This document shows positions 1 through 4,554 of a stretch of DNA of 64,000 bases, in pieces. Position 1 is the first letter of the stretch, and the number at the start of each line of letters is the position of its first letter. A program made the position numbers and the translations under genes. Source of the DNA: an uncultured Methylophaga sp. (lineage in GTDB: Bacteria > Pseudomonadota > Gammaproteobacteria > GCF-002020875); the NCBI GenBank assembly GCA_937877715.1, contig CALEHW010000042.1, positions 1-64,000 on the forward strand, written 5' to 3'. The notes beneath the pieces were generated by a model, which saw nothing but the letters and a program-made list of their open reading frames with translations, was not told the DNA's origin and ran no database searches.

Positions 1-55
1 GATGATATACGGAATCCGTATAGTATCATATTTACTGATTCCGTCTAATATACTG

Positions 56-228
56 ATAAGCGCGGCCGCTTCGCGCCCACGCTTATCGGTGAGCTGAGCA
101 GCAAGCTGCTCCATCATCTTGAAAGGCTCCGCTCCGCTGCGCCTATCAAGACGCTGGAGCAGAAATCTCCCTAATACCGGTTACGAGCAAGCTCGAACCG
201 GATTAGAAAGATTCTGCTCAGCTCACCG
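56..228 (+). repeat. Structured palindromic element, copy 1
   Basis: This 173-nt element is nearly identical to 1120-1293; the only difference seen is one A in the run near 207-210. It starts with a hairpin whose arms are ATAAGCG (56-62) and CGCTTAT (79-85). A perfect 14-bp inverted repeat follows, GGTGAGCTGAGCAG (88-101) against CTGCTCAGCTCACC (214-227), enclosing two further long hairpins, one near 98-162 and one near 170-206. The right end abuts GTTAGGC, an integron core-site sequence, so the boundary falls at the G/TT crossover position. There is no ORF inside. It may be an ORF-less cassette made only of an unusual attC, a MITE, or a structured RNA. Confidence 0.75.
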
Positions 229-252
229 TTAGGCTCAATGGCTGGTTAAACA

Positions 253-1014
253 ATGATTGAAAATTTCACATACACTGATTTATCTGAATCTGTAGAAAAA
301 GAGTTATCATTAATCCTTGGTAGAATTACGCACCATGTTCACCCTGAAGTTGTAAGCTATGTCACAGCAGAAAATATTAGTTATCAATTACGATTTCAAA
401 GTATTTGCCATGAGAAATGTAAATCTGACCAATTTTTTTATCATGATTCTGACTGTGTCTTTCCAGGATTTAGAAGGCCAATAAACAAAGAAAAAAGTGG
501 GAACTGGAAAAATAAAGTAAATCATATGGATGGAACTATCCTTAATGATAATACATTTCCAAGACATATTTGGGCATACCTATCTATGAACAAAGCATAT
601 TCAGGTGGTGCTTCAGGTATGTGGTCTGCTAGTGGATTAGGTAAATTTGAATTAGCGCATATATTTAGTCACAAGCAAGATGAAAGAGCTTTAGAGAAAG
701 AGGTTTTCACAGAGGTAGATGAAAACATGGAGCCTTATGGGTTGTTTACATCTGCTTCTAATGTAGTATTAATACCAAAGGGTTTTGCTAAACCAACTGA
801 CCAAATGAAGACCATCAAAATATGCTTTTATAAAAGACATTTAGAACTTTATGGTAATAATATTACAGGTTTAAAAGGTTTTAATGAAAAGCATGTTCCT
901 GCTTGGTATAGCGAAATTAAATGGCTTGATCCAGAGCTTCCCTGTAATTGGAAAACCAAGGTAGATAATCTATTAAAATATAGAGAGAATTATCTGAGGA
1001 AAAAGTATGCCTAA
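253..1014 (+). CDS. Integron cassette protein, hypothetical (possible HNH-like nuclease)
   Basis: This 253-residue protein is encoded in DNA clearly more AT-rich than the core genes downstream, as expected of a mobile cassette. I do not recognise the family with certainty. A His in FELAHIFSHKQDE (about residues 134-146) followed by Asn and Lys in SASNVVLIPKGFAKPTD (about 172-188) recalls the spacing of HNH-type endonucleases, but the zinc-finger cysteines are missing and the resemblance is weak. The gene starts 22 nt after the GTTAGGC core site. It has no good Shine-Dalgarno; a tiny ORF (ATG GCT GGT TAA, 237-248) ends just before the start and could couple translation. Its stop codon lies inside the first inverse core site of the attC downstream, the usual cassette layout. 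Confidence 0.7.
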   Translation: MIENFTYTDLSESVEKELSLILGRITHHVHPEVVSYVTAENISYQLRFQSICHEKCKSDQFFYHDSDCVFPGFRRPINKEKSGNWKNKVNHMDGTILNDNTFPRHIWAYLSMNKAYSGGASGMWSASGLGKFELAHIFSHKQDERALEKEVFTEVDENMEPYGLFTSASNVVLIPKGFAKPTDQMKTIKICFYKRHLELYGNNITGLKGFNEKHVPAWYSEIKWLDPELPCNWKTKVDNLLKYRENYLRKKYA

Positions 1015-1125
1015 CAAAGCCATCAACTCGGACCCTGCAAAACGGTGCGCCTTGTGGCATTCGCTGCGCTCAATTTTGCCACAAGCCACACCGTTCCGCA
1101 GGTCCGGTTATGGCGGGCGATAAGC
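1009..1125 (+). mobile_element. attC recombination site 1 (integron cassette)
   Basis: The site begins with an inverse core GCCTAAC (RYYYAAC, 1009-1015) followed by AAAGCCATCAACTCGGACC. It has an imperfect palindrome with the arms ACTCGGACCCTGC and GCAGGTCCGGTT and ends GGCGGGC. The sequence closely matches attC site 2 at 2021-2138. Where a core GTTRRRY is expected there is GATAAGC (1119-1125), which is also the left end of the second palindromic element. Either the core is degenerate or the element has entered at the crossover point, the intact GTTATGT then lying at 1293-1299. Confidence 0.8.
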
Positions 1126-1293
1126 GCGGCCGCTTCGCGCCCACGCTTATCGGTGAGCTGAGCAGCAAGCTGCTCCATCATCTTGAAAGGCTCCGCTCCG
1201 CTGCGCCTATCAAGACGCTGGAGCAGAAATCTCCCTAATACCGGTTACGAGCAAGCTCGAACCGGATTAGAAAAGATTCTGCTCAGCTCACCG
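1120..1293 (+). repeat. Structured palindromic element, copy 2
   Basis: This is the second copy of the element at 56-228, 174 nt long because of one extra A near 1271-1274. The 14-bp inverted repeat is at 1152-1165 and 1279-1292, with the same internal hairpins. It lies between the GCGGGCG end of attC site 1 and TTATGTG, as if inserted at the G/TT crossover of a GTTATGT core. Near-perfect identity over the whole length, with different flanks, points to recent duplication or mobility. Confidence 0.75.
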
Positions 1294-1384
1294 TTATGTG
1301 TTACATAGTTGATGGCATTCGACCATAAGTAGTCATCCTAATTAAAGCAGATTAAAAATATAATAGAAAAAATGGAGAGATGTT

Positions 1385-1960
1385 ATGGAAAAGTCAATTT
1401 TTGTATTCGGTATATTTTTAGTTCTAGTTTCATGTGCTCCATTAGAAACACATGAAGCAAACAGTCAAGCATCAACAGTATCGTATCTCAATATGCCTAA
1501 CGTGCTTGAAATAGATGGCAATAAATATACTAAGTACACTAAATGGACCTGTCGAGACTATGTTCACGATGAGAGAATTGCCCTTGAGGTTGTAAAAACT
1601 GATAAAGGCGTGGTGGATGTAATGGGAGGCAATATACATGGTGCTATAGAGGAGGTGCAAAAAGAAAATAATAATGAAATTACTAAAGAGCAAGAAGGAC
1701 GGTTAAAAGTATTATTAGAAGGGGTAGTGCAAGAAGCTTTTAGTAAGTATAGCTTGGGCTATGTTTTATATGATGGAAGCAAAGAGTATGCAAGAACATT
1801 TTATTTGCGAGAAGGTATTAGTCATAGGTGGGAATGGGAAGATGGAAAATATGTCTTTATAATAAAACCAAATGGTTTGGGGCTTTACTACGATTTTACA
1901 AATACGGAAAAAGGTGCTCCTACAAAAGCACATGATATTTTTAAGTGCGAGAAAGTATAA
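1385..1960 (+). CDS. Integron cassette lipoprotein, function unknown
   Basis: This 191-residue protein has a short positively charged N-terminus, a hydrophobic stretch and a lipobox LVSC (Cys about residue 17), so it is predicted to be a lipid-anchored envelope protein. I recognise no enzymatic motif in the mature part. Unlike the first cassette gene it has a good ribosome site (GGAGAG 7-12 nt before the ATG) and a TATAAT -10-like box at 1359-1364, though the -35 region is poor, so it may be transcribed from inside the cassette. The DNA is AT-rich. The cassette is closed by attC site 2. Confidence 0.75.
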   Translation: MEKSIFVFGIFLVLVSCAPLETHEANSQASTVSYLNMPNVLEIDGNKYTKYTKWTCRDYVHDERIALEVVKTDKGVVDVMGGNIHGAIEEVQKENNNEITKEQEGRLKVLLEGVVQEAFSKYSLGYVLYDGSKEYARTFYLREGISHRWEWEDGKYVFIIKPNGLGLYYDFTNTEKGAPTKAHDIFKCEKV

Positions 1961-2020
1961 AAGTAAAATTCAGCAGTTGGCGGTTAGCATCATATTTGAC
2001 TTCATGAAAAGCAGTAAAAC

Positions 2021-2138
2021 ACATAACAAAGCCGTCAACTCGGACCCTGCGAAACTGGGTGGTTTGTGGCATTCGCTTCGCTCAATTTTGCCACAAACCA
2101 CCCAGTTTCGCAGGGTCCGGTTACGGCGGGCGTTATGC
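2021..2138 (+). mobile_element. attC recombination site 2 (integron cassette)
   Basis: The inverse core ACATAAC (2021-2027) is followed by AAAGCCGTCAACTCGGACC. A long palindrome has the arms CTGCGAAACTGGGTGGTTTGTGG and its near complement around 2088-2117. The site ends GGCGGGC-GTTATGC (core at 2132-2138), a form common in chromosomal integrons. It shares its outer parts with attC site 1 while the central arms differ with compensating changes, which is characteristic of attC sites. No integrase gene or attI is visible in the window. Confidence 0.85.
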
Positions 2139-2525
2139 ATTCAAAACAGATGATCGCCTGAACCAGTCAGCCAGATCTTCCTCGGTCAATTCACCATCAG
2201 CCAGTTGCTGAAAAACAATTACGGTCTCTGGTTCGGAGGCATTCAAAGAGTATCCATTTAGCTCCAGAAATATAGACCCTGTGGTTAGGGCAATTCGTTT
2301 GTTTCCATCAACAAAAGGGTGGTTCTTTGCCAGACCATAGCTATATGAGGCTGCAAGATCAAAAATGGAAGTTTCATCATCATAGGTGAAGCGTTGCTGT
2401 GGTCGGTTGAGGGCTGATTCCAGCAGGGCTTGATCACGTATGCCTGTTGCTCCACCATGTTCCGCAAGAAGCATCTGATGGACGGCAATGACAATTTTCT
2501 GAAGAACCCATGCAGGTTCCCTCAT
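2133..2525 (-). CDS. doc: Doc-type Fic toxin of a toxin-antitoxin module
   Basis: This 130-residue protein carries the Doc form of the Fic motif, HPFVDGNKR, at residues 69-77. Doc proteins of this family phosphorylate EF-Tu and so stop translation; acidic Asp73 and catalytic His69 are present, so it looks intact. The N-terminal ATG overlaps the antitoxin stop (ATGA), a normal coupling in such modules. Its stop codon (2133-2135) begins exactly at the G/TT crossover of the attC core at 2132-2138, so the module abuts the end of the cassette array in reverse orientation. Confidence 0.88.
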   Translation of the reverse strand: MREPAWVLQKIVIAVHQMLLAEHGGATGIRDQALLESALNRPQQRFTYDDETSIFDLAASYSYGLAKNHPFVDGNKRIALTTGSIFLELNGYSLNASEPETVIVFQQLADGELTEEDLADWFRRSSVLNA

Positions 2526-2746
2526 TTTGCCAACTCATGGAGCGCATTACGATATTTGTTCATTACCTTTTCAGCTACTTCCAACTGTTTTTCAAAATCC
2601 TGCTGGTATGGTGTGAGGGTCAGCCCTTCGAGTGTATCAACCAGATACAGGAGATCTCCTTTTCCGACCCTGAGCTTAGTCAGTGCCTCTTTTGGGAGTA
2701 CAATTCCCATTGAGTTTCCTATTGTTGTTACTTTTGCTTTTAACAT
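2522..2746 (-). CDS. AbrB/MazE-type antitoxin partner of Doc
   Basis: This 74-residue protein has a SpoVT-AbrB swapped-hairpin DNA-binding N-terminus (KVTTIGNSMGIVLPKEAL, residues 5-22) and a charged helical C-terminus that would bind the toxin. It lies upstream of doc on the same strand and overlaps it by 4 nt. It should both neutralise the toxin and repress its own promoter. The promoter region contains two direct TAATAAC copies about 12 nt apart, a possible operator. Confidence 0.85.
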   Translation of the reverse strand: MLKAKVTTIGNSMGIVLPKEALTKLRVGKGDLLYLVDTLEGLTLTPYQQDFEKQLEVAEKVMNKYRNALHELAK

Positions 2747-2895: not shown

Positions 2896-2927
2896 GAATG
2901 ACAAATCAGGCTTTAATTGGTGTAAAA

Positions 2928-3275
2928 ATGTCATTCTATCATCATACAGACACGGAAATAGCTGAAATCCTCGCTGGTCGTGTCAAACAGTATCGTCTCG
3001 AGAATAGTCAAAGAAGTCTCACGCAGAAGGAGATGGGTGAGCGCACTGGATTATCCAGAGATACCATTCAGCGTCTTGAGAAGAGCGGAAGGGTTTCTGT
3101 TCTCGCATTGATCGCAGTGCTGCGGGAGTTGGGTTTGCTTGATAACCTGGAGATATTAGTTCCTGAGAAACCACCAGTATCTCCCATTGCTGTGGCTAGG
3201 CAGCAAGAAAAAATGAAGTCAAAACGGCAACGAGCAAGAAAGAAGACGGCCAGGGTGATGAACAATGGCCAATGA
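2928..3275 (+). CDS. hipB: HipB-like HTH antitoxin
   Basis: This 115-residue protein has an XRE-type helix-turn-helix at about residues 24-55 (SLTQKEMGERTGLSRDTIQRLE) and a Lys/Arg-rich C-terminal tail. It is the expected repressor and antitoxin for the HipA-like kinase that follows, which it overlaps by 11 nt. I place the start at 2928 because an in-frame ATG at 2898 lies only 2 nt after the apparent -10 box; neither start has a strong ribosome site. It differs from E. coli HipB in its long basic tail. Confidence 0.8.
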   Translation: MSFYHHTDTEIAEILAGRVKQYRLENSQRSLTQKEMGERTGLSRDTIQRLEKSGRVSVLALIAVLRELGLLDNLEILVPEKPPVSPIAVARQQEKMKSKRQRARKKTARVMNNGQ

Positions 3276-4554
3276 TATCGTTGAGGTGTATGCGTGGGGG
3301 AAGAGAATTGGTGCGCTCATTGAGTCTGCAGATCGCCCAGGATTCTATCTGTTTGAATACGATCTTCCGAATATTCGAGATCGTGAATTTTCCCCGCTTT
3401 TTATGGGAGTAGGCACCAAACAGGTTTTTGAGTTCCCGGCACTAGCGACTGAAACCTTTTATGGACTTCCGGGGATGATTGCTGATGCCCTGCCGGATCG
3501 GTTCGGTAATGCCTTGATTGACCATTATATGGAGGAGCGTCAAGGTCTGCCGAGGGAATCGATCACAACGCTTGATCGTCTTCTCTATACGGGAAAAAGA
3601 GCAATGGGGGTGCTGGAATTTGCCCCCGCCATGCCGGTTACTCCTGTCGAGGATCATGCTTTGGCAATGTCTTCACTAGTTGAGGATGCGCGTAGGGCAA
3701 TACGTGGAGAGTTTAGAGAGATTGCTGCAGATCTTATCCAGATCGGAACTTCGGCGGGTGGGGCTCGCCCCAAAGCTGTTATAGGCTGGAACAGGGAGAC
3801 AAAAGATATTGTTGCGGGTCAATTTGATGTACCAGAAGGATATGAGCACTGGCTTTTGAAGTTTGATGGGGTGGGGGAAGATAGAGCTCTTGGTGGGGCG
3901 GAAGGGTATGGACGAATCGAGTACACCTATTACGAGATGGCACAAGAGGCAAAGATCGATATGTCTGAGTGTGATCTCTTGCTGGAGAATGATCGAGCTC
4001 ATTTTATGACTAAACGCTTCGATCGAATCAACAACCATAAGCTGCATATGCAGTCATTCTGCGCAATAGATCACCGTGATTTTAATATCCCCTATACCGT
4101 CGAGTATGATTCCATATTCCGCATAGCCCTAATACTTGGAGTGGGATATCGGGGAAAAGAGCAGCTCTTTCGTAGGATGGTGTTTAATGTGCTGACAAAT
4201 AACTGCGACGATCACACAAAGAACTTTTCATTCTTGATGAGCGAAGATGGTGAGTGGTCTCTTGCTCCTGCCTATGATGTGACCCATGCACACAACCCTG
4301 ACTCAGACAAGTGGACCCGCCAGCACCAAATATTGATTAATGGAAAAGCAAAACCGGAAGAGATCAGCAGACAAGATCTAATGGCGGTTGCGGTTCGCAA
4401 TAGCATAAAGAATCCAGGTGTGATTATTGATGAGATTGCCGAGGCCGCGACTCTTTGGGGTGAGCTCTCAAAAGCCAATGAGGTTCCCCTGGAGCAACAG
4501 CAGCAGATCAGCTCTGAGATAGAGAAACAGCTATCAATAATGGGAAGCACCTAG
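3265..4554 (+). CDS. hipA: HipA-like serine/threonine kinase toxin
   Basis: This 429-residue protein has a HipA N-terminal domain (about residues 1-110) and a HipA kinase domain. Visible signatures are the glycine-rich GTSAGGARPKAVI loop near residue 161, the catalytic-loop motif NCDDHTKNFSF near 313-323, and LAPAYDVT just after it. HipA kinases phosphorylate aminoacyl-tRNA synthetases and induce dormancy; the exact target here is unknown. It overlaps hipB in the -1 frame arrangement usual for coupled modules. The sequence looks intact and closes the accessory region before metH. Confidence 0.88.
   Translation: MANDIVEVYAWGKRIGALIESADRPGFYLFEYDLPNIRDREFSPLFMGVGTKQVFEFPALATETFYGLPGMIADALPDRFGNALIDHYMEERQGLPRESITTLDRLLYTGKRAMGVLEFAPAMPVTPVEDHALAMSSLVEDARRAIRGEFREIAADLIQIGTSAGGARPKAVIGWNRETKDIVAGQFDVPEGYEHWLLKFDGVGEDRALGGAEGYGRIEYTYYEMAQEAKIDMSECDLLLENDRAHFMTKRFDRINNHKLHMQSFCAIDHRDFNIPYTVEYDSIFRIALILGVGYRGKEQLFRRMVFNVLTNNCDDHTKNFSFLMSEDGEWSLAPAYDVTHAHNPDSDKWTRQHQILINGKAKPEEISRQDLMAVAVRNSIKNPGVIIDEIAEAATLWGELSKANEVPLEQQQQISSEIEKQLSIMGST

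Follow-up and report, generated by a model that had tools for sequence, protein, structure and literature searches.

A gene-less element at integron crossovers of an uncultured Methylophaga, probably a cassette made of a recombination site only

Several mobile elements have specialised on integrons, including IS1111-attC elements, group IIC-attC introns and integron-associated MITEs, all of which carry or depend on an enzyme of their own. In addition, Loot et al. (2024; cited in PMC12901181) reportedly described the insertion of cassettes into genomes at attG. Sites of the attG kind are short and of the GNT type. The open literature further contains gene-less cassettes, mostly promoter cassettes, reports of off-target activity of the integron integrase (IntI) and cases in which an altered attI serves as attC. 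An element like the one presented here was not found in that open literature, outside which most subscription papers lie. Integron cassettes lacking an open reading frame (ORF) are known, for example, from Vibrio and from an oral metagenome (PMC11014356, PMC6557892). According to published work, the extrahelical bases and the unpaired spacer of folded attC sites are needed for recombination (PMC12901181), play an important part in recognition (PMC3053210) and direct the choice of strand (PMC8946536). As for the core, the second base is lax for IntI1, and cleavage at G^AT has been reported (PMC10127599).

The window, i.e., the whole stretch of 64,000 nucleotides (nt) analysed here, opens inside a chromosomal integron of the genome G000. 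The integrase gene intI is located on another contig (C1:610-1551; 470 bits to TIGR02249), and the array is ordered intI - attI - E1 - cassette A - E2 - cassette B - further genes, where E1 and E2 are two copies of a short element, E. The parts of the array within the window are the following.

1 to 55, plus strand: attI of the chromosomal integron, cut by the contig edge and equal to the reverse complement of C1:1-55, with intI divergent on contig C1
56 to 228, plus strand: element copy E1, inserted at the attI crossover
229 to 1119, plus strand: gene cassette A, with an ORF at 253-1014 and a canonical attC at about 1009-1119
1120 to 1293, plus strand: element copy E2, between cassettes A and B, with one extra A
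1294 to 2132, plus strand: gene cassette B, with an ORF at 1385-1960 and a canonical attC at about 2021-2132

The start of cassette A, TTAGGC, is complementary to its own R'' (GCCTAAC), and that of cassette B, TTATGTG, to its own R'' (CACATAAC). The attC of cassette B is 87% identical to that of cassette A, and the bottom strands of both fold with bulged bases. As both cassettes keep their own R''/R' rule, their boundaries are fixed independently, and E1 and E2 are thus separate units rather than parts of the gene cassettes. Contigs of this assembly dovetail by 55 nt, and the break between C1 and C42 falls at a 55-mer ending exactly at the attI crossover (window 1-55, C1:1-55), as expected if cells differ in sequence after attI, which suggests a mixed population and hints at recombination by the integrase. 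Right after the attC of cassette B, the minus strand of window 2133-2746 encodes a Doc-type toxin (TIGR01550) and an antidote (TIGR02609), a unit that starts with TTATGC and is perhaps a further cassette on the other strand. Window 2898-4554 encodes a small HTH protein and, after it, one of 429 aa; judged by eye, the two resemble a HipBA pair. Elsewhere in G000, CRISPR-type repeats (GTGTTCCCCACACCCGTGGGGATGAACCG) stand at the ends of contigs C1 and C34 (L153, L158) and are probably one broken array.

An earlier note on this DNA had described the two element copies as near-identical, devoid of ORFs and ending exactly at the crossover G with different flanks, and these observations are borne out. 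E1 is 173 nt and E2 174 nt long, and a single A inserted in E2 is the sole difference. The right-hand junctions are G^TTAGGC for E1 and G^TTATGT for E2, the left flanks are unrelated, and no credible ORF overlaps the element. In total, the genome holds five full and two broken copies. The three full copies beyond the window (C54:10365, C17:28145 and C13:82447) are 100% identical to E1, while the broken ones comprise an internally shortened copy consisting of hairpin 1 and a simple stem (C19:2175) and a 39-nt remnant (C54:45495). The junction is always G^TTA, and the orientation is always the same. All genomes used are draft assemblies, and with an apparent k of 55, shorter than the 173-nt repeat, the joins depend on read pairs; those at C17 and C54 are backed by collinearity of the flanks with relatives. 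A multihaem cytochrome-like gene has the shortened copy (L035:2166-2230) at its 3' end, where the TTA junction overlaps the stop codon.

On its left side, each of the three outer full copies is preceded by 46-61 nt of attI-related sequence, and TTA follows on the right. Compared with one another and with attI, these attI-like flanks show 82-89% identity, whereas the three copies and E1 are 100% identical, indicating that E is younger than the sites and reached pre-existing sites recently. The earlier note had looked to copies outside integrons with unrelated junctions as evidence against an attC role; the full copies display the opposite, attI-like junctions, and only the shortened copy (L006) has a flank that, compared with background, lacks attI similarity beyond CTG^TTAG. 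In the same type of comparison, the flank of the 39-nt remnant ranks within the top 0.8% for resemblance to attI, and the attI sites of two further E-bearing integrons, G095 and G225, rank within the top 0.1% and 0.4%, respectively.

No E is present anywhere in G004, the nearest relative searched. Over 1.55 kb, contig C3 of G004 matches the C13 locus collinearly at 88%; the orthologous site there is unoccupied, given as ...ATAATATACTG^TTA and ...AATATACTG^TTA, with three right-flank bases before the contig ends. A second attI-like site of G004, at its C34:1185, is also without E (CTG^TTAGGC, in full ...AATATACTG^TTAGGC). At the G004 counterparts of the C17 and C54 loci, attI-like sequence is absent altogether, showing that the attI-like sites themselves come and go. 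Such sequences of 46-61 nt are scattered outside the integron in the two related genomes (L001 on C54, L003 on C17 and L004 on C13 in G000; L056 and L061 in G004), and about 159 nt of the attI-like region is common to two loci.

Relatives of E occur in two other integrons. No E was found in 94 related genomes, where a 36-nt match in G022 (L008/L038) has no second half, lies at a gene start and was taken as chance. Exact-pattern scans of IMG/VR returned nothing, and distant BLAST searches of E variants against plasmids and phages returned none. When contigs of 85,000 species were scanned, a first E pattern gave no match and a second found one further contig, belonging to the MAG G095 (L092). 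Its array carries three copies in the order attI-E-A-E-B-E, the first exactly at attI and copies b and c following attC sites, and its integrase is 47% identical to the G000 intI product. One more gene-less unit may precede copy b, and the boundaries of E are independent of it. The last 20 bases of L099 (the end of G095:C364) look like an Illumina adapter, making the end of the third copy unreliable. The G095 array also contains an Acido-Lenti-1 RNA on the minus strand (L092:7238-7283; 45.5 bits, above the gathering score). A model, R1, combining E with two of the G095 copies and run on 33 integrase loci, found one more relative in G225 (35.9 bits, E-value 1.6e-5), which is located exactly at attI and has a quite different sequence with the same architecture, its ends being placeable only within TT. 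Weak model matches on the reverse strand reflect the palindrome being read backwards. E is thus found at the attI of three integrons. A strict alternation of E and cassettes does not hold, as G000 has no E after cassette B and none was seen after the first cassette of G225. All three E-bearing integrons encode an integrase (L037:160-1554, L092:4841-6235, L138:4451-5815) that is about 455-464 aa long and extended at its N terminus by about 145 aa; the extension matched no Pfam model in the two integrases scanned. A strict tie between E and such integrases was likewise rejected, since G402, G447 and G423 have the extension with E undetected; several loci have little upstream sequence.

In its predicted fold, E opens with a 31-nt hairpin; a 15-bp stem with two hairpins inside it comes immediately after. 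In E1, these parts are as follows.

56 to 86, plus strand: hairpin 1, in which ATAAGCG (56-62) pairs with CGCTTAT (80-86), comprising the R' start and an R''-like core
87 to 101, plus strand: left arm of the 15-bp stem, CGGTGAGCTGAGCAG, from the fold
106 to 162, plus strand: inner hairpin B, from the fold
164 to 213, plus strand: inner hairpin C, from the fold
214 to 228, plus strand: right arm of the stem, CTGCTCAGCTCACCG^, an attC-like L'-spacer-R' arm ending at the crossover G and, near the crossover, common to the canonical attC arms of G095

A 14-bp terminal inverted repeat with nested hairpins had been proposed for the two copies; the two nested hairpins are indeed present, yet the repeat is 15 bp long, and its left side is not terminal, as hairpin 1 precedes it. 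CGCTTAT, which pairs with the initial ATAAGCG, occupies positions 25-31 of E, and the stem starts immediately thereafter. With DNA parameters, the fold reaches -69.1 kcal/mol, compared to -31.6 +/- 3.5 for shuffles (z -10.8), and z ranges from -9 to -11 across foldings of E, far beyond chance. The structure is conserved between the integrons. Between G000 and G095, four base pairs differ in both partners and none in just one. Among the 19 outer pairs (hairpin 1 and stem) compared between G000 and G225, 9 are changed on both sides, 0 on one side and 0 are broken. The latter changes take in the core itself, from GATAAGC/GCTTATC to ATTGCAG/CTGCAAT. All helix changes exchange Watson-Crick pairs for Watson-Crick pairs, and when RNA energies are used, a fold of 65-69 pairs contains 0-1 G-U pairs. 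Judged from these small numbers, the pattern would be that predicted for a DNA fold, whereas an RNA would be expected to tolerate G-U pairs.

By its position and geometry, E resembles a cassette. IntI crossovers (G^TT) bound it as G|E|TTA, either at attI or between cassettes, and its start is complementary to an internal R'', with ATAAGC/GCTTAT in G000 and G095 and TTGCAG/CTGCAA in G225, or, counting the longer pairing, ATAAGCG/CGCTTAT and, in G225, TTGCAGG/CCTGCAA. An attC-type L box is present 5-6 nt from the crossover (GCTCAGC-TCACC-G^, compared to GCTTAGC-TCACC-G^ in a G095 attC), and the R' arm, GCTCAGCTCACCG^, is almost equal to its counterpart in one canonical attC of the G095 array, GCTTAGCTCACCG^. 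When the ends of E are joined in silico, the last G and the first ATAAGC form a continuous helix with the stem, placing the crossover mid-helix. This geometry would be that of attC in a free cassette, with GCTTATC as R'' and G^ATAAGC as R'. Of the three readings offered in the earlier note, the ORF-less cassette with an unusual attC is therefore the best supported, with the correction that GCTTATC pairs perfectly with the first six bases and last G of E itself (G^ATAAGC), and not mainly with the neighbouring GTTATG/GTTAGG.

E nevertheless departs from a canonical attC. The core RYYYAAC ... GTTRRRY is replaced by GCTTATC / G^ATAAGC, one base off in each, so that the core is GAT rather than GTT, which is less of a problem given the G^AT cleavage reported for IntI1. 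Moreover, the folded element has neither extrahelical bases nor an unpaired central spacer, as the 15-bp stem and hairpin 1 are fully paired beside the crossover. Lacking these two defining features, E should not be filed as a canonical attC, and its perfect stem leaves the choice of strand, and hence the uniform orientation, without explanation, which counts against a role of IntI. Weighing these points, we consider E to be a gene-less cassette consisting of a recombination site only, a non-autonomous mobile element of integrons that is probably moved by IntI (probability roughly 0.7).

It could be envisaged that E is excised as a circle, its ends joining as ...CACCG^ATAAGC.... One strand of the circle would then fold up, its uninterrupted helix spanning at least 22 bp around a central crossover. 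With hairpin 1 closing one end and the multi-hairpin head the other, this structure would stand in for attC. The integron integrase would exchange this folded strand with attI or an attI-like chromosomal site between G and TTA, yielding attI-G|E|TTA, and repeated insertion at attI, with E alternating with gene cassettes, would build attI-E-A-E-B. The simplest role for E is that of a selfish hitch-hiker. More tentatively, but quite conceivably, E may be the founder of a family of minimal selfish elements parasitising integron integrases, an integron counterpart of MITEs, in which a closed-dumbbell site without extrahelical bases would be usable by IntI and would spread via arrays and chromosomal attI copies.

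Alternatively, E could be a MITE-like element moved by another enzyme, e.g., a hairpin-recognising HUH transposase (IS200/IS605 or REP-type) inserting after TAA on the bottom strand and favouring integron sites by chance. The earlier note had similarly considered a MITE targeting attC. Such an element would be consistent with the hairpins at either end of E, the absence of a target duplication, the short and conserved junction (TAA^C on the bottom strand), the copies outside the integron and the lack of extrahelical bases, which speaks against ordinary attC use. Yet, matching the specificity of IntI, every full copy occupies attI, an attI-like site or a cassette boundary, and a TAA target alone cannot account for four attI or attI-like sites out of a whole genome. 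All G095 copies and the G225 copy found also sit at integron crossovers, the complementarity of the start of E to R'' obeys the cassette rule, and obvious transposon terminal inverted repeats are not displayed by the copies, making this explanation unlikely.

An RNA or transcription element, such as a structured leader, attenuator or promoter ahead of each cassette gene, is considerably less probable still, so that the structured RNA suggested in the earlier note is disfavoured. E does lie upstream of a gene in the G000, G095 and G225 arrays, and promoters are frequent in gene-less Vibrio cassettes (PMC11014356). However, E was found to contain neither promoter- nor terminator-like sites, and at C17 and C13 the genes flanking the element converge, leaving no gene downstream of it in sense. 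The two-sided Watson-Crick changes and near absence of G-T pairs argue in the same direction. Both window copies match the Clostridiales-1 RNA of Rfam at 41.9 bits, below the gathering score of 48, but the match is absent on the G095 homologues and was rejected as a hairpin artefact. That E belongs permanently to the attI platform of one type of integron, and was copied around the genome together with attI, is hardly credible. E does adjoin attI in three integrons, and at three other loci its neighbour is attI-like sequence. Yet the G402 and G447 integrons have the same kind of attI without E, which is thus not part of attI, and E2 as well as G095 copies b and c come after attC instead. Moreover, E remains identical where the attI-like flanks diverge by 11-18%, and the orthologous G004 site is empty.

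If E is indeed a cassette moved by IntI, extrahelical bases, an unpaired spacer and GTT would not be strictly needed for a cassette, and the rules of attC recognition, along with cassette-finding software, would change. Integrons would then carry non-autonomous parasites of their own, and IntI would scatter DNA to chromosomal attI-like sites in nature and not in the laboratory only. E is small enough for direct testing by a standard recombination assay.

Compared to known systems, E is, like ORF-less cassettes, a gene-free unit that stands in an array beside intI and has cassette crossovers at either end. However, those cassettes consist of a body and an attC, often with a promoter. In E, only a short hairpin loop could count as a body, the recombination site is fully paired, and identical copies exist beyond the array. 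Like the canonical attC sites of cassettes A and B, E has a start complementary to R'', an L'-spacer-R' arm ending at G^ and a single-strand fold, but its core reads GAT where theirs is GTT, its head is branched and multi-hairpin, and it has neither extrahelical bases nor an unpaired spacer. Insertion at attG likewise places cassettes outside the integron at IntI-type sites, although the sites of E are 46-61-nt attI copies and not short GNT-type sequences. Finally, in contrast to IS1111-attC elements, group IIC-attC introns and integron MITEs, E is positioned exactly at the IntI crossover and encodes nothing.
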